NCBI RefSeq assembly: GCF_900170035.1
Contig: NZ_LT828540.1
Coordinates: forward strand, 101,479 to 165,478
Direction: 5' to 3'
DNA from: Desulfamplus magnetovallimortis
GTDB lineage: Bacteria > Desulfobacterota > Desulfobacteria > Desulfobacterales > Desulfobacteraceae
DNA: 64,000 nt
Under the pieces are notes generated by a model that worked only from the letters and a program-made list of their open reading frames with translations, was not told the DNA's origin and made no database searches. Positions 29,544 through 63,058 of the stretch are shown here, in pieces (within the stretch, counting starts at the first letter, position 1; the number at the start of each line of letters is the position of its first letter). The translations under genes and the position numbers were made by a program.

Positions 29544-30431
29544 ATGAAAAAAATACCTTATTATCCACAGTCTGTTGATATTGAGCTTGAACTGAGAGAA
29601 TATCTTCATCCCATGTTTCAGGCACTTTCAGAAGGGATTTCCGAGTTCACATTTGCCAATATTTACCTTTTCAGGAAGGATCATTTATACGAGATTTCAA
29701 AAATTAAAGTTGATGGTTCAGAAAATAATGGGGATATCGTAGTCATTACAGGCAATGACAGCGGTGAAAAATTTTTTATGCTTCCCTTTGGCATTCCGCC
29801 GATTAAATATCTTCGCACTCTTTTTGAAAACCATCGTACATTAAAATGTGCATCCCGATCCCAGGTGGAGCTTCTTCTTGATATGGGATATACAGTATTT
29901 GAAGATCGTGATAATTTTGATTATCTTTACCATCGACAGCATCTCGCTGACCTTCCTGGAAGGAAATTCCATAAAAAAAGAAACCTTATAAAGGCATTTA
30001 TCAATAATCACAGTTATGAAGGACGTCCTCTGCTTGATGAATATATTCCACATGCACTTGAGATACTTGAAAAGTGGCGGCGAAATCGTGACAATGACGG
30101 AGATTACTATCCTGCAAGGGAAGCGCTGGAAAAATGCCATCCTCTTCAGTTGTGCGGCGGCATATACTATGTTGACAGCAAGCCTGTGGCCTACTCTCTT
30201 GGAGAAGAGAATGCCTGTGGAAAAAGCTTTGTAATTCACTTTGAAAAAGCTGTGACAGGTTATAAGGGGCTGTGGCAGTTTGTAAATCAGGCGTTTGCCT
30301 CTATTATAACAGAATACTATGAGACAATTAATCGGGAACAGGATCTTGGTGATGAGGGCCTGAGAAAGGCAAAATTGAGTTATCAGCCATCTGGGTTTGT
30401 TAAAAAATATCGGATATGTCACAAATTGTAA
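29544..30431 (+). CDS. DUF2156 (lysylphosphatidylglycerol synthase C-terminal-like) protein
   Basis: 295 residues, soluble, no membrane segment. The pattern DNFDYLYHRQHLADLPGRKF, HKKRNLIKAF, followed by GGIYYVDSKPVAYSLGEE, FVIHFEKA and a C-terminal NREQDLGDEGLRKAKLSYQP, matches stand-alone DUF2156 proteins, a GNAT-like acyl or aminoacyl transferase fold related to the catalytic domain of MprF. Substrate is not known; MprF-like membrane helices are absent. It follows the helicase by 27 bases, and its end overlaps rapA by 16 bases, indicating one transcript. Confidence 0.85.
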   Translation: MKKIPYYPQSVDIELELREYLHPMFQALSEGISEFTFANIYLFRKDHLYEISKIKVDGSENNGDIVVITGNDSGEKFFMLPFGIPPIKYLRTLFENHRTLKCASRSQVELLLDMGYTVFEDRDNFDYLYHRQHLADLPGRKFHKKRNLIKAFINNHSYEGRPLLDEYIPHALEILEKWRRNRDNDGDYYPAREALEKCHPLQLCGGIYYVDSKPVAYSLGEENACGKSFVIHFEKAVTGYKGLWQFVNQAFASIITEYYETINREQDLGDEGLRKAKLSYQPSGFVKKYRICHKL

Positions 30432-33337
30432 AAGGTCAGCGCTGGATGAGCGAAATGGAGCCTGAGCTTGGGCTTGGTATTGTAACTGAAGTTGATAAAA
30501 GGGTACTTTCCCTCCTTTTTAAAACAAGTCAGTGTCTGAGGCAATACTCCGTTTTCAACGCACCTTTGAAAAGAATACGCTTTTCTCCTTCTGACCGCAT
30601 TCATTTAACAAATAAAACAAGTTTGACTGTTGATTCTGTGTCTGAGCAGAACCAACTCTATTACTATCATGGAGATGGAAGGGTTATCTGTGAAACAGAG
30701 CTTTCAGATACCATGGTTTTTAATACCCCCCTTGATCGCCTTAATGCAGGCATTTCAGACTCTTCTCAACTTTTTGATTTAAGATATGAAGCCCTTGTTG
30801 CAAGGCATCGCTATCTCACATCCGATGTAATGGGCTTTACAGGTGCAAGAATTGACCTGATACCCCATCAGTTTTATATTGCACAAGAGGTTGCCTCACG
30901 CCATACTCCAAGGGTGATGCTTGCAGATGAAACAGGACTTGGTAAAACCATTGAGGCATCCCTTATTCTGAACCGCATGCTTTTGAGTGACCAGATACAC
31001 CGTGTTCTGATCCTTGTCCCTCACTCACTTGTCCACCAGTGGTTTGTTGAGCTTTACCGCAGATTCCATCTGACATTCAGAATTATTGATGAAGATTACT
31101 GCGACTCCTTTGAGAAAAAAGAGCCTTTAATCAATCCGTTTGTTGAAGACCAGCTTGTTCTGTGCCATATAAATGATGTTGTTCTTAACAGAAAAAGAGC
31201 GCAACAGTGTATTGATGCCGGCTGGGATATGGTGGTGGTTGACGAGGCTCATCATGTTGACGAAAATTCCCCTGCTTACTCATTTCTTGCAGATCCTTCA
31301 TTTTCAGACACGGCTCTTCTGCTGATTACTGCAACTCCGGAACAGCTTGGCATTGAGCGTCATTTTGCCCATCTTAAGCTTATTGATCCGGTACGCTATA
31401 CAACACTTGAAAATTATCTTAAGGAGAGCAGGGATTACGCAAAAATTGCTGAATCCATTGAAGAAAGGATAAAAAATTATAACCAGAAGAAGAATTGCGA
31501 TTGTTCAAAAAACGGTGATAATATAAGCGATCAATCCATTCATGCTCATAAACTCCAGGAGATAAACAAGTTACTGGATTGTTATGGCCCCGGAAGGGCT
31601 GTTTTCAGAAATACCAGAGCTTCCATAAAGGGTTTTCCCCAAAGAAAAGGTTTTTTGTATCCGATTGATGAAACATGCCGAGTTGATGAGTTCTATGGTA
31701 ATATATTGTCTGAAACATTTCCGTTGTCTGAAACATTGATGTTTAATAACACCCTTTCGGTTGATAACACCCTGCCGGTTAATAACACCCTTTCGGTTGA
31801 TAACACCCTGTCGGTTGATAACACCCTTTCGGTTGATAACACCCTGTCAGTTGATGGCATTTTACAGTCAAGGATTACGGAACAGAGGATTCAATGGCTT
31901 ATTGATCTTATCAAAAAAAATCCTGAAGAGAAATTTCTTCTGATATGTCATCACCCTGAGAATGTCCTTGAGATTTTTGAGGCGCTGCAGCAGAAAATAA
32001 CCCTTGATGTTGCACTGTTTCATGAAAGAATGACACTTATTCAAAGGGACAGAAATGCTGCATGGTTTTCCCATAAAAAGGGTGCAAGGCTTATGATTTG
32101 CTCTGAAATCGGCAGCGAAGGGCGAAATTTTCAGTTTGCAAGTCATCTTATTATGTTTGACCTGCCCCTTAATCCTGAGCTTATAGAACAGCGCATCGGA
32201 CGGCTGGACAGAATAGGGCAAAAAGGCAATATTATGATTCATCTGCCTTATGCCGGAAATACAGCCCAGGAGGTTCTTGTCAGATGGTACAACGAAGGAA
32301 CCGGAATTTTTGAGCATTATAACAGTGGCATTCTCTCTGTTTACGAAAAGTTTTCGTCAAGGCTTTGTGATCTTTTTGCAGATTTTCTACCTGATGCCCT
32401 TGAAAATCTTATCAAGGATACAAAAGTATTTTCAAAAAAAGTCATGGAGACTCTTACAAAAGGGAAGGATAAGCTTCTGGAGCTTAACTCATTTAACCCT
32501 GATGCGGCAAAAGAGTTGATCGACACTGTCCATGCCCTTGATGAGGATACCTGCTTTGACATGTTTGCCTTAAAACTTTTTGGTTACTTTGGCATTCAGG
32601 CTGAAGATACAATGAAAAGATCATATCGCCTTCACTTTACTGATCCTGATAATATTGATATCCCTATACCAGTATTAAAAAAAAACGGCATGGAGATAAC
32701 ATTTGATCGAAAAATTGCAGTATCGCGGGATGATATTGAGTTTATTACATGGGATCATCCAATGGTATCCGGGAGTATGGATATGCTCTTTGGTTCCGGA
32801 GCAGGCAATTCCTGTGTCGCAGAAGTTGAAGGTTATGGTGAATTTGCAATTATTCTTGAGGCTATTCACGTAATTGAGTGTATAGCTCCTGTATCTCTGA
32901 ATCTTAACCGTTTTTTGCCATCTATTCCTGTAAGAACGGTTGTTTCTCATGAAATGAAAGATGTAAACAGGGTATTTACTACGGAATTTATAAAAAAACA
33001 TACCTGTAAAGATAAAGTTATAGGTATAGGTATAGGTAATGATACTACCTGGATTAATGCCTTTCCTGAGATCAAAGAGACTCTTTTGCCCAAAATGGTT
33101 GAAACATCCCGTGAACATGCCATGAAAAAAGCATCTGAAATTATCAAAAATGCAAAACAGAGTGTGATCGAAAGGATGGGGGCTGAAATGGCAAGGCTCA
33201 AAGAGCTGAAAATGAAAAATCCTGCGATCAGGGATGATGAAATAATCTGGACCGAAAAAGAGAAAGATCGTTATCTTGAATATATCGCAAAAGCGTCTAT
33301 CCGTCTTGATTCATTACGATTGTTGAAGGTTCAATAG
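30416..33337 (+). CDS. rapA: RapA-like RNA polymerase-associated SWI2/SNF2 ATPase
   Basis: 973 residues, close to E. coli RapA (968). RapA recycles RNA polymerase after transcription. N-terminal Tudor-like region (GQRWMSEMEPELGLGIVTEV), Walker A DETGLGKTIEAS near residue 170, VVVDEAHHVDENS near 275, TATPEQLG, and a helicase C-half with SEIGSEGRNFQFASHLIMFD and PELIEQRIGRLDRIGQ. Residues about 430-481 hold an insertion of six-residue repeats (DNTLSV and relatives, plus LSET) just before the second helicase lobe. It overlaps the DUF2156 gene. Confidence 0.94.
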   Translation: MSQIVKGQRWMSEMEPELGLGIVTEVDKRVLSLLFKTSQCLRQYSVFNAPLKRIRFSPSDRIHLTNKTSLTVDSVSEQNQLYYYHGDGRVICETELSDTMVFNTPLDRLNAGISDSSQLFDLRYEALVARHRYLTSDVMGFTGARIDLIPHQFYIAQEVASRHTPRVMLADETGLGKTIEASLILNRMLLSDQIHRVLILVPHSLVHQWFVELYRRFHLTFRIIDEDYCDSFEKKEPLINPFVEDQLVLCHINDVVLNRKRAQQCIDAGWDMVVVDEAHHVDENSPAYSFLADPSFSDTALLLITATPEQLGIERHFAHLKLIDPVRYTTLENYLKESRDYAKIAESIEERIKNYNQKKNCDCSKNGDNISDQSIHAHKLQEINKLLDCYGPGRAVFRNTRASIKGFPQRKGFLYPIDETCRVDEFYGNILSETFPLSETLMFNNTLSVDNTLPVNNTLSVDNTLSVDNTLSVDNTLSVDGILQSRITEQRIQWLIDLIKKNPEEKFLLICHHPENVLEIFEALQQKITLDVALFHERMTLIQRDRNAAWFSHKKGARLMICSEIGSEGRNFQFASHLIMFDLPLNPELIEQRIGRLDRIGQKGNIMIHLPYAGNTAQEVLVRWYNEGTGIFEHYNSGILSVYEKFSSRLCDLFADFLPDALENLIKDTKVFSKKVMETLTKGKDKLLELNSFNPDAAKELIDTVHALDEDTCFDMFALKLFGYFGIQAEDTMKRSYRLHFTDPDNIDIPIPVLKKNGMEITFDRKIAVSRDDIEFITWDHPMVSGSMDMLFGSGAGNSCVAEVEGYGEFAIILEAIHVIECIAPVSLNLNRFLPSIPVRTVVSHEMKDVNRVFTTEFIKKHTCKDKVIGIGIGNDTTWINAFPEIKETLLPKMVETSREHAMKKASEIIKNAKQSVIERMGAEMARLKELKMKNPAIRDDEIIWTEKEKDRYLEYIAKASIRLDSLRLLKVQ
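31704..31858 (+). repeat. 18-bp tandem repeats inside rapA
   Basis: About six copies of ACACCCTTTCGGTTGATA with T/G changes encode DNTLSV, preceded by a two-copy 18-bp repeat TTGTCTGAAACATTTCCG encoding LSETFP. The period is a multiple of three, so copy-number change would keep the frame. Confidence 0.92.
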
Positions 33338-40236: not shown

Positions 40237-40286
40237 GCCTGGAGCATTTTCATGGTCTGGGATGGCAGTTGAATTCGGCCATGACG

Positions 40287-40491
40287 GTTTAGATTCATAT
40301 CTTCTGATTATCGTTTTATTTAGGACAGTTCAGATTCATATCTTCTGATTATCGTCTTATTTAGGACAGTTCAGATTCATATCTTCTGATTATCGTCTTA
40401 TTTAGGACAGTTTAGATTCATATCTTCTGATTATCGTCTTATTTAGGACGGTTCAGATTCAGATCTTCTGATTATCGTTTTATTTAGGAAT
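40287..40491 (+). repeat. Five tandem copies of a 41-bp repeat
   Basis: Unit GTTCAGATTCATATCTTCTG followed by ATTATCGTCTTATTTAGGACA, repeated five times without spacers and with only a few substitutions, ending in TTTAGGAAT. Located between livK and livH. Not coding. Confidence 0.95.
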
Positions 40492-55258: not shown

Positions 55259-56529
55259 TTGACTCCAGATATTAAAAAATTTATCTCACTTTTTGAAATC
55301 CCGCCTGCAATTCAACCCTATGTGGAAGTGTTTGCTGAACCTTTGGAAATTGAGCTTATAGTTACAATGAACGGCACTGTAATGAAACCGGAAGAGGTTG
55401 CAGAACGTTTGAGCATGGATTTGCAGCAGGCATCGGATTTCCTTGAGAAATGCTATTACAAGCATTTTGTGCATCGTGTGGTGGATGGTAAAAAAGTGGG
55501 TTATGTTTTTGATCATGTTGATACAGCCGGAAAATCCGTTGCCTATATGCCGGCTCGTTTTACTGATCGCCTTGATGAGCTTACCATGTATGGAAACTGG
55601 GACGATATCCCGGAGGATGTCCGGCAGGAAATTACAGACTGGTGGCTTGATGACTACGTGAAAAAAGTCTCTCCTGTTGTTGAAAATATCAAAAAAGATC
55701 CCGATGCATACCAGCAGATAAAGCAAAAGGATTTTCTGCTTCTTGAAGAGGCTCTTGAGCAGGTAGAAAAGGCAGAGGTTCATGCAGTGGTCAACTGCGA
55801 CTGTCGATCCAGTACACAAGGATGCAATCGTATGGTTGAGGCATGCATTCGCCTTGATGATGGGGCAAGATACACCCTGGAAAGAGGGCTTGGCAGAAAA
55901 CTTACGCGTGAAGAGTGCAAAAGCGTGGTTCTTAAAACCGATCGTGAAGGCCTAATGCACATTGGAACACTTCCCCATGAAGGAAAGGGGCTTTTTGGTT
56001 TTTGCAACTGCTGTACCTGCTGCTGTTTTCCAGTAAGGGCTTCCGAAAGACTTGACAGTGACAGGATTTATCCAAGGGTGCATTATGTGGCGTCAAGGAA
56101 TGATGATACCTGCATCCATTGCGGCATATGCGTAAAGCGATGTCAGTACAATGCTTTTTATCATGATGGAAGTGATGTTATTGTAAAACTTGAAAAAAAT
56201 TCAAAAAAATGCACGGAAAACACTGAAACAAAAAGCACGGAAAACACTGAAACAAAAAGCAGGGGAAACACTGTAACAAAAAGCAGGGGAAACACTGTAA
56301 CAAAAAGCAGGGAAAACGCTGAAACAAAAAGAAGAGAAAAAGTAGAGATAAAAAGTAAAGATAGCTCTGAAAGCAGCATTATCATTAATAAAAAAGCCAC
56401 CAAAGATAACAAGGACTTTAAGTTAAAAAAAGAAAAGCTGTGCTTTTTGATCCGTCAAGATGCTATGGATGCGGTTTGTGTCGTACCGGATGCCCCAATG
56501 ACTGCATTGAGATGATATCAGTACATTAA
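55259..56529 (+). CDS. 4Fe-4S ferredoxin-type protein whose second cluster lies in the -1 frame
   Basis: TTG start with AAGGA upstream. Residues 1-170 are helical (winged-helix-like, AEPLEIELIVTMNGTVMKPEEVAERL). A cysteine-rich region follows (NCDCRSSTQGCNRM, FCNCCTCCCFPV), then a ferredoxin motif CIHCGICVKRCQYNAF. A 24-bp tandem-repeat insertion (56199-56345) comes next. The frame itself ends at 56515 without a second cluster, but in the -1 frame the last codons read CYGCGLCRTGC then PNDCIEMISVH and stop at 56527-56529. The switch is near seven A at 56425-56431. This is either -1 ribosomal frameshifting, a recent mutation or a sequencing error. Next to hypB/hypA; possible electron carrier. 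Confidence 0.75.
56199..56345 (+). repeat. 24-bp tandem repeats inside the ferredoxin gene
   Basis: About six units like ACGGAAAACACTGAAACAAA+AAGC encode TENTETKS, RGNTVTKS, RENAETKR and REKVEIKS. Adjacent pairs are identical (units 1-2 and 3-4), suggesting recent slippage. They lie between the two ferredoxin cluster motifs. Confidence 0.92.
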
Positions 56530-56568: not shown

Positions 56569-57267
56569 TTGACAAAAAAAATAATAGAGGTAAGGCAGTC
56601 AGTAACCGCTGCCAATGACTCTGTTGCAGAAAAAATCAGAAAGTGCTTTGATCGTTACGGCATCTGGGTGCTAAACCTTATATCCTCTCCTGGTGCCGGA
56701 AAGACATCCCTGATTGAAAAAACCATTGAAGCTTTAAGCCCGAATATTGCAATAACTGTTATTGAAGGCGACCCATACACCAGCATGGACAGTGATCGAA
56801 TCAATGCCGCAGGAGCACGGGGGATCCAGATCAATACCCATGGCGGATGCCACCTTGATGCCAGGATGATAGAAAATGCACTTTGTGAAACATCTGAAAA
56901 AATAATTGATTTTGGCACTGTAGATATGATCATAATTGAGAATGTCGGAAATCTTCTTTGTCCCGCGGTTTGGGATTTGGGTCAGGATAACACAACAGTT
57001 GTAACGAGCTTGACAGAAGGAAGCGATAAACCCTTTAAATATCCAGAAACCTTTATAAGGGCTGACACTCTTGTGATCAACAAAATGGATCTTAAACCCT
57101 ATCTGCCTCCACCTTCTGCTGAACTCAAACCAAATGCCATGAGCATTAACCCAGCACTGAAGATTTTTGAACTAAGCTGTACAAACGGGGATGGCCTCTC
57201 TGACTGGTATGAATGGGTTAAAATGAACATCAGGAAAAAGAAAACAGGGATTCATGCTAAGGCTTGA
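56569..57267 (+). CDS. hypB: Hydrogenase nickel-incorporation GTPase HypB
   Basis: 232 residues from TTG 56569 (AGAGG upstream). P-loop SSPGAGKTSLIEK near residue 40, VIEGDPYTSMDSDRI, THGGCHLDARMIENAL (metal-binding Cys-His pair), IIENVGNLLCPAVWDLG, and the guanine-specificity INKMDLKPYL. Delivers nickel to [NiFe]-hydrogenase with HypA, hydrolysing GTP. It lacks an N-terminal His-rich or CxxCGC nickel store. hypA follows after 204 bases holding a type D repeat. Confidence 0.96.
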   Translation: MTKKIIEVRQSVTAANDSVAEKIRKCFDRYGIWVLNLISSPGAGKTSLIEKTIEALSPNIAITVIEGDPYTSMDSDRINAAGARGIQINTHGGCHLDARMIENALCETSEKIIDFGTVDMIIIENVGNLLCPAVWDLGQDNTTVVTSLTEGSDKPFKYPETFIRADTLVINKMDLKPYLPPPSAELKPNAMSINPALKIFELSCTNGDGLSDWYEWVKMNIRKKKTGIHAKA

Positions 57268-61297: not shown

Positions 61298-63058
61298 TCA
61301 AGAAGAAAACGGTGATGAGTAGTAACGCTTCCATGTCTCAATGTAACTTTTTTTCTCCTGTTCCCATCTTTCAGTACTCCATGGCAGATAAGGTTCGCAA
61401 ATGCTCTGGATTTTATTAAGATGGGCTTTTCCCCCTTCAGGGAGCAAAAGGCCGATTCTGACCCTTCTTAATAAAAGGTCGGAAAGATGCATAACCTTTT
61501 CATGTGATGCGGCATGGGGCAGTTCAGCCCATAATGTCTCTGTGTTATCAATGGGGTGAAGAAGCTCTTTGTGATCATTTGTGATTTCAACGGCCAGTGT
61601 TCCGTATCTTCCTGACAGACGCCTTCCTGCATGAAGCTTTGCAAAACCTGAAAGATCAGCCATAGGGGGATTCATATTGAAAACCCTGTCCGAAGTTTTA
61701 CTTTTACGACTCACTTCTTCTGCATTTACAGGTCTATTGGAGGTTGATATGAACTGCTTTGCAGCTTTAAGGGCATCCAGTGCCAGAAGTCTGAATGTGG
61801 TTAATTTTCCGCCTGTTACTGTTACAAGCCCTTTATCTGCCCAGACCACATGTTCCCTTGATTCACAGGAAGGATCAGTTGTGTTATTGCCTTTGCTGAG
61901 TACCGGCCTTACACCTGCAATGGAGCCTGTGCAGTCTGATTCCGATATTTTAAGCCCGGGCAGAATAAAGTTTAGCCCCTCCATCAGATACTCTGCCTCT
62001 TCAATGCTTGCAACAGGTTCCATATTTGGGTTTTTTGGATGATCAACATCGGTTGTTCCCAGGACAGCGCACCCCTCCCATGGAAAAATAAATACAGGGC
62101 GTTTGTCCTTAGGATGGATAAAACTTATAACCCTGTCATGGGGGAAAAGTTCTCCAGGAAAAATAAGGTGACTTCCCCTGAGAGGCCTTAAAAAATAGCC
62201 ATGCCTTGGACAGCTATGGAGTGATTCTGCCCAGATTCCGGTGGCGTTTATGACAAAAGTGGCGTCAAATTCGTGTGATATAGAAGTTGCATAAAGCTTT
62301 TCTGATAAATTAAGTTTTTCTGATAAATTCATTACACTATTATTCTGTAGCTTTTTATCTTTTGTCGGGGCATCAAGTTTATCTGATAAATCCATGAAAG
62401 TCTTAATCTGAAATTTGTTATCCGTTGGGGCGGCTCTGTTAAAATCCTTCTCATCTGCATAAACCCCGACAACTTCTCCTCTTGAGTTTCTTTTTATATT
62501 TTGAACCTTTGTGTAGTTCAATGCTACCCCACCGCCTTCACATCCCTCCTGGATAAGCCTTAAAACAAGCCTTGCATCATCTACCTGGGCATCCATGAAA
62601 TCAAAACCAGTCATAAGTGACTCTCTTTTCAGTTCCGGCATCATTTTTTTTATCTCAGATGCATTATATCTTGAATGCTGTTTTTTCATGGCCATAAGGC
62701 TGTAAATATTTAAGCCAGCTTCCATGAGAAAAGCAGAAGGGCCAAATGATTTGTAAACCGGCATGAAAAAATTGAGTGGTTCCACAAGTCCAGGCAATTC
62801 CCTGAGAAGTCGCTGCCTCTCTGTTACGGAGTCGCGTGTGAGAAAGATTTTTCCCTGCTTAAGGTAACGAAGCCCGCCATGTACCATTTTAGATGATCTG
62901 CCTGATGTTCCGGATGCAAAGTCATTTTTTTCAAGAAGCAGGGTGGAGTAGCCCATTTTTATCGCCTGATGAAATACAGCAGCACCTGTAATTCCTCCTC
63001 CAATTACAATGATATCCCATTTTTTTTTGATATTATTAAGTTCCATTATCAGTTCCAT
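61298..63058 (-). CDS. glpD: FAD-dependent glycerol-3-phosphate dehydrogenase-like
   Basis: 586 residues. FAD-binding IIVIGGGITGAAVFHQA near residue 17, the GlpD hallmark NDFASGTSGRSSKMVHGGLRYL, LNFFMPVYKS, FVINATGIWAESL, FIFPWEGCAVLGTTDVDH, and TVTGGKLTTFR, followed by a helical C-terminal domain. Oxidises sn-glycerol 3-phosphate to DHAP at the membrane. Residues about 210-255 contain an insertion with repeated NLSEKLNLSEKLY and NNSVM-type words, not seen in ordinary GlpD. AAGGG precedes ATG 63058. It follows the fadR-like gene by 19 bases. Confidence 0.92.
   Translation of the reverse strand: MELIMELNNIKKKWDIIVIGGGITGAAVFHQAIKMGYSTLLLEKNDFASGTSGRSSKMVHGGLRYLKQGKIFLTRDSVTERQRLLRELPGLVEPLNFFMPVYKSFGPSAFLMEAGLNIYSLMAMKKQHSRYNASEIKKMMPELKRESLMTGFDFMDAQVDDARLVLRLIQEGCEGGGVALNYTKVQNIKRNSRGEVVGVYADEKDFNRAAPTDNKFQIKTFMDLSDKLDAPTKDKKLQNNSVMNLSEKLNLSEKLYATSISHEFDATFVINATGIWAESLHSCPRHGYFLRPLRGSHLIFPGELFPHDRVISFIHPKDKRPVFIFPWEGCAVLGTTDVDHPKNPNMEPVASIEEAEYLMEGLNFILPGLKISESDCTGSIAGVRPVLSKGNNTTDPSCESREHVVWADKGLVTVTGGKLTTFRLLALDALKAAKQFISTSNRPVNAEEVSRKSKTSDRVFNMNPPMADLSGFAKLHAGRRLSGRYGTLAVEITNDHKELLHPIDNTETLWAELPHAASHEKVMHLSDLLLRRVRIGLLLPEGGKAHLNKIQSICEPYLPWSTERWEQEKKSYIETWKRYYSSPFSS

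Follow-up and report, generated by a model that had tools for sequence, protein, structure and literature searches.

The gene at positions 55259-56515 of the window, the whole 64,000-nucleotide stretch of Desulfamplus magnetovallimortis DNA that was analysed, is probably a two-motif ferredoxin gene that carries a lineage-specific repeat insert together with a recent indel or a base-call or assembly error, and not the site of a programmed event. The two CxxCxxCxxxC motifs do not occur in one polypeptide in this gene, as they are split over two frames. A sequence-only reading of the DNA had described one motif in the zero frame and a perfect second motif in the -1 frame with its own stop at 56527, and had pointed to a run of seven A residues (A7) read TTA AAA AAA in the zero frame. 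These descriptions hold, and the -1-frame stretch is recognized by the Pfam family Fer4. The features of the region are as follows.

55259-56515, + strand: zero-frame ORF with a TTG start, 418 amino acids, C-terminal end ...DAVCVVPDAPMTALR
56111-56143, + strand: first 4Fe-4S motif, CIHCGICVKRC, in the zero frame; Pfam Fer4 match obtained from the whole ORF
56189-56424, + strand: long A-rich linker, 236 nt versus 3 nt in Desulfospira joergensenii
56206-56340, + strand: 24-bp tandem array (TRF: 5.6 copies, 91% matches), coding for about ETKSxENT per unit
56411-56415, + strand: AAGGA, a Shine-Dalgarno-like sequence 9 nt upstream of A7
56422-56529, + strand: -1-frame open stretch, with the second motif CYGCGLCRTGC from 56461 and a TAA stop at 56527-56529
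56425-56431, + strand: A7 run, which forms an A_AAA_AAA slippery site when read in the zero frame (TTA AAA AAA GAA)
56569-57267, + strand: hypB (CobW/HypB/UreG family), Pfam PF02492
57472-57840, + strand: hypA, Pfam PF01155

The zero-frame ORF consists of an N-terminal domain, a Cys-rich domain (CDCRS, FCNCCTCCC), the first CxxCxxCxxxC motif, a tandem-repeat linker and an out-of-frame tail, which follows a stretch rich in Lys, Glu, Asn and Thr and reads ...VCVVPDAPMTALR. In the -1 frame there are stops at 56407 and 56419, followed from 56422 by an open stretch whose translation, KKRKAVLFDPSRCYGCGLCRTGCPNDCIEMISVH, holds the second motif. Fer4 is matched at 9.9e-06 by the zero-frame protein and at 9.7e-07 by the 35-amino-acid -1-frame stretch at 56422-56526.

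Orthologs and the second motif

Six close orthologs of this gene were found, and in every one of them both motifs lie in a single frame, spaced 28-32 residues apart. They come from Desulfospira joergensenii (L036 = G017), Desulfosarcina widdelii (L040 = G345), genome G219 (L041) and three Desulfobacterales/Desulfobacteraceae MAGs (L037; L038 = G367; L039 = G142). The ortholog search gave five distinct loci in named genomes, and the sixth ortholog, that of G219, was taken from an order-wide set. Six of the 389 genomes in the order-wide search match at E <= 1e-45, the source genome included; among the other five, four are named-genome orthologs and the fifth is G219. The six orthologs share the same Cys motifs and are about 69-72% identical to the window protein over its first 307 residues (for those in named genomes, in the best segment). 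No ortholog was found in nine congeners, several of whose genomes are incomplete (52-98%): the best listed matches for eight of them are 28-34% identical, and the ninth, G002, gave a match at E 1.4e-8 outside the listed matches.

The second motif is also in frame in all 12 of the more distant homologs that were hand-picked from the homology matches and aligned. Thus, both motifs share one polypeptide, as is characteristic of bacterial-type 2[4Fe-4S] ferredoxins, in all 18 homologs examined (6 orthologs and 12 others). Because orthologs and further homologs encode both motifs in one frame, the -1-frame motif is a genuine, conserved ferredoxin motif and supplies the second half of the 2[4Fe-4S] ferredoxin encoded by the gene at 55259-56515. 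This second half shows no decay, with 17-20 of its 26 amino acids identical to those of five orthologs, compared with 16-21 among those orthologs themselves. Relative to D. joergensenii, 20 of 26 amino acids are identical and the nucleotide changes number 5, 3 and 19 at codon positions 1, 2 and 3, a distribution that, together with the presence of the same motif in orthologs, rules out a chance origin.

Production of a free second motif from an internal start is unlikely. The -1-frame start codons are GTG at 56440, TTG at 56476 and ATG at 56512, and only the GTG precedes the second motif; it lies 24 nt from AAGGA.

Homologs of hypB and hypA are located directly downstream of the ferredoxin gene in all six orthologs, as in the window. 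The window gene is an ortholog of a two-motif ferredoxin-like protein that is encoded just upstream of hypB-hypA in several genera of sulfate reducers. This neighbourhood suggests that the protein may act in or near hydrogenase maturation. A confident AlphaFold model of the D. joergensenii protein (mean pLDDT 90.1) joins the two motifs by a predicted beta-hairpin, formed by strands 305-314 and 317-324. The closest solved structures to this model are two-cluster ferredoxin domains such as 9bt4_H (TM 0.66 by target length, 70 columns), in a search that gave no match at E <= 0.001.

The repeat insert and the break in the frame

The linker at 56189-56424 spans the sequence from VIVK to A7 and represents a net gain of 233 nt over D. 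joergensenii. The nearest cysteines of the two motifs are separated by 317 nt in the window and by 84-96 nt in the orthologs, and the A content over 56180-56450 is 53%. The long insert is found only in the window gene, is absent from all six orthologs, and maps to the hairpin tip at K315-G316 of the D. joergensenii model. Neither the 24-bp array nor the 233-nt longer linker had been mentioned in the sequence-only reading. When up to two mismatches are allowed, the 24-bp unit has five matches in the source genome, on one strand and all inside the array at 56206-56340. A mobile repeat element was considered as the source of the insert and rejected, since no copies of the unit were found outside this array at that level of mismatch.

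The zero frame is open through the array and the -1 frame has many stops there, which indicates that the array grew in the zero frame. The added 233 nt equal 78 codons minus one base, and therefore the ferredoxin frame is lost. With the array in the zero frame, the change of frame is confined to the interval from about 56420 to the conserved KKRK codons, and the earlier claim that the frame has to change at or just after A7 is borne out.

These observations can be accommodated by the following series of events. The hairpin between the two motifs gained a hydrophilic insert in this lineage, which expanded by in-frame duplication of the 24-bp unit, with slippage or unequal exchange as a plausible cause. 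The assembled sequence is one base short of holding the second motif in frame, and the break is best placed in the A-rich junction at about 56420-56437, where single-base indels are likeliest. The one-base change is probably a recent indel in the strain, or a base-call or assembly error beside the array. Should the indel be genuine, translation would mainly give a protein without the second motif, with slippage at a background rate on A7 supplying little full-length protein at best.

The break appears in one genome only and is flanked on each side by homologous sequence under codon constraint, which is the pattern that marks a recent indel or assembly error. In PMC3711429, single unclustered frame transitions are treated as likely indels or sequencing errors, and for unclustered transitions validated by BLASTp, sequencing errors are expected over indels. 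The window break resembles these singleton transitions in that it occurs in one genome among those searched and is flanked by homology on both sides. No feature that sets it apart from the singleton class was found.

Frame breaks are few in the conserved stretches examined. A survey of 121 conserved source-genome stretches (129 kb), drawn from 864 kb examined of 6.68 Mb and containing 139 A/T runs of at least 7 and 20 G/C runs of at least 6, yielded two breaks, one in the ferredoxin gene and one outside the window, in an ABC-transporter-type ATPase near C1:205511. When D. joergensenii was surveyed in the reverse direction, none of 83 stretches was broken. A stricter earlier survey, with 89 HSPs within its identity and coverage limits, had returned one candidate and missed the ferredoxin gene, whose second segment fell below the length cut-off; relaxing the cut-offs and adding other relatives as queries recovered it. 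The ATPase break is not at a homopolymer, and the homologs of that gene are uninterrupted in the congener G007 and in D. joergensenii.

An assembly ridden with homopolymer errors is not supported by a survey in which the one other break lies away from homopolymers. A sequencing error at A7 is individually unlikely, because homopolymer breaks are few in this assembly, a count in which homopolymers within aligned stretches are in frame by construction. A homopolymer error at the ferredoxin A7 is nevertheless possible, especially beside a 135-bp array. The scarcity of homopolymer breaks and the presence of AAGGA at 9 nt, which is unusual at such sites, both count against attributing the break to an indel or error.

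In-frame tandem arrays in the genome and its relatives

In-frame tandem arrays within conserved proteins are abundant in the source genome and, more weakly, in its genus. The 864 kb sampled (C1:1-100000 and 101479-865000) contain 230 merged tandem arrays, 138 of them inside open frames of 150 amino acids or more, and the period is divisible by three in 132 of these 138. This corresponds to 16.0 in-ORF arrays per 100 kb. The density is 6.0-12.5 in the three congeners sampled, G003, G004 and G007, and 1.7-3.3 in nine further family members from seven genera. The samples are small (40-100 kb) except for the source genome and D. joergensenii, and the source genome and congeners are AT-richer than the others. 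An order-5 Markov imitation of 200 kb produced 2 arrays, versus 49 in the real sequence. Arguing against a family-specific excess, 40 kb of G042, from another family of the same order, held 4 in-ORF arrays (10.0 per 100 kb), although no array there scored 80 or above. The congener G003 has only one in-ORF array of score 80 or more in 100 kb. Insertions of 12 amino acids or more number 43 in the source genome and 21 in D. joergensenii (53 of 58 pairs kept, pairs being best hits at 35% identity or more), a ratio on which we do not rely because several come from paralogous or multidomain pairs.

Several individual genes carry repeats of this type. In a RapA-family ATPase of the window (ORF 30416-33337), an 18/36-bp array at 31746-31855 codes for (VDNTLS)n between the SNF2 and helicase-C domains. 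A GlpD-like FAD oxidase, also in the window (ORF 61298-63058, - strand), has a short array at 62294-62329 within a repeat-containing insert of about 50 amino acids. In place of residues 209-262 of this oxidase G034 has about 2 residues, and in place of residues 204-264 the congener G007 has about 9; the congener G003, however, keeps about 58 residues in this region. A ClpB-like chaperone (L108:9986-12856; G000:C1:534986-537856, - strand) has a 27-bp array in its mid-region with QHNDQQEDN-type repeats, which is an insertion relative to its best hit in D. joergensenii. There is also a 41-bp tandem array at 40283-40489 (5 copies, 95% matches) that is not among the arrays in open frames of 150 amino acids or more.

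By eye, the MutL linkers of the source genome and of G001 (L147, L155) contain unrelated tandem repeats, and the MutS proteins of G002 and G008 (L149, L150) have a repeat-like insert. These differences suggest that the genus gained repeats more than once, independently. Simple loss of mismatch repair was rejected as the cause of the repeats, since mutS and mutL are both present and over cut-offs in the source genome.

Low-complexity inserts occur in conserved proteins of Plasmodium, and inserts derived from palindromic elements occur in proteins of Rickettsia. The inserts described here are likewise hydrophilic, in frame and located in loops and linkers of conserved proteins, but they are tandem arrays, and the one unit examined, the 24-bp repeat, occurs at a single place. 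Among the matches listed in a limited set of open-licence papers, there are no reports of repeat inserts of this kind in sulfate reducers.

The A7 run and other readings of the break

The A7 run together with the following GA codes for Lys-Lys-Arg in the -1 frame. D. joergensenii also has an A7 run at the homologous place, in GGG AAA AAA AGA AAA, where it is read AAA AAA AGA within an uninterrupted frame. The junction is therefore A-rich because it encodes KKRK, and the A7 run itself is inherited Lys-Lys-Arg coding. There are three A7 runs between the two motifs. Simulating the 53%-A linker with an order-1 Markov model gives a 44% chance of an A7 in any given 50 nt, and the presence of the run is thus no more than chance would produce. 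Across the genome, an in-phase A_AAA_AAA or A_AAA_AAG is present in 249 of 526 sampled ORFs, and thus the heptamer alone says little. There is no sign that ORFs avoid slippery sites, as in-phase A_AAA_AAA was observed 269 times and expected 169 times from codon shuffles.

The best of the alternatives is that -1 frameshifting is programmed or otherwise utilised, wherein ribosomes slip on A_AAA_AAA with the help of AAGGA, as in dnaX, to give both a short protein and the full two-motif protein. The Shine-Dalgarno-like sequence of E. coli dnaX has a spacing of about 10 nt. Like dnaX, the window site combines an A-rich slippery sequence in phase with a Shine-Dalgarno-like sequence upstream at similar spacing; unlike dnaX, it is without a downstream hairpin and without conservation across relatives, and any trans-frame product is putative. 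PMC3711429 describes the A-rich slippery site, upstream Shine-Dalgarno-like stimulator and downstream hairpin of dnaX, and names A_AAA_AAA among the heptamers implicated in bacterial frameshifting. The correct phase and place of A7, the undecayed second motif and the small number of other homopolymer breaks are all consistent with recoding. AAGGA at a spacing of exactly 9 nt occurs at only 1 of 387 in-phase heptamers, and Shine-Dalgarno-like 5-mers and 4-mers lie 6-13 nt upstream of 11 and 38 of these, respectively, although this search was made post hoc, after the site had been seen.

Unfortunately for this proposal, no RNA hairpin stands out downstream of the site (z -0.58, with 54 of 200 shuffles folding at least as well), and the fold of a wider stretch is not unusual (z +0.78). 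The heptamer is common in ORFs, and the frameshift is conserved in none of the six close orthologs. The sequence-only reading, which held that the shift might be programmed, had itself named relatives with an uninterrupted frame and without a slippery run as grounds for refutation, and an uninterrupted frame is present in all six orthologs and all 12 further homologs. It had also proposed that, if the shift is programmed, the cell makes one- and two-cluster forms. In bacterial 2[4Fe-4S] ferredoxins, each cluster is coordinated by three cysteines from one motif plus the fourth cysteine of its partner. The short form would thus have an incomplete set of ligands even for cluster 1, because its fourth cysteine binds the other cluster, and a clean one-cluster protein is doubtful. 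Taken together, these findings cause us to regard programmed frameshifting as unlikely.

A more elaborate proposal is that in-frame minisatellites repeatedly invade the loops and linkers of conserved proteins in this genus, and that the A-rich edge of the ferredoxin insert, with A7 and AAGGA, has become a frameshift switch that sets the dose of the second motif. We consider this combined scenario improbable.

Phase variation, in which gain or loss of an A in the run at the DNA level would turn the second motif on or off, is very unlikely. The junction is repeat-rich, with three A7 runs between the motifs, and a change in the length of the run at 56425-56431 could shift the frame. However, because 24 bp is divisible by three, gain or loss of array copies cannot switch the frame. 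In addition, A7 would be short for a contingency tract, and the genome has mutS and mutL, each with an open frame. Transcriptional slippage, in which RNA polymerase adds an A within the run and restores the frame in some mRNAs, is known at bacterial poly-A/T tracts such as the 9-runs in dnaX and those of Buchnera and Blochmannia (PMC5009743), but it is extremely unlikely here, as there are only 7 A residues, runs longer than 7 are those named as involved in PMC3711429, and coding-strand A7 runs are common inside intact ORFs (371 in 718 kb).

On the preferred reading of a recent indel or error in a two-motif ferredoxin gene, the frameshift as such is most likely nothing unusual, having been seen in one genome only. 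The larger point concerns the insert: a conserved iron-sulphur protein has been lengthened by some 78 residues at the turn that joins its two motifs, and this insert belongs to a genome-wide excess of in-frame arrays inside ORFs. If the frameshift were functional, it would represent a bacterial recoding site born from repeat expansion.
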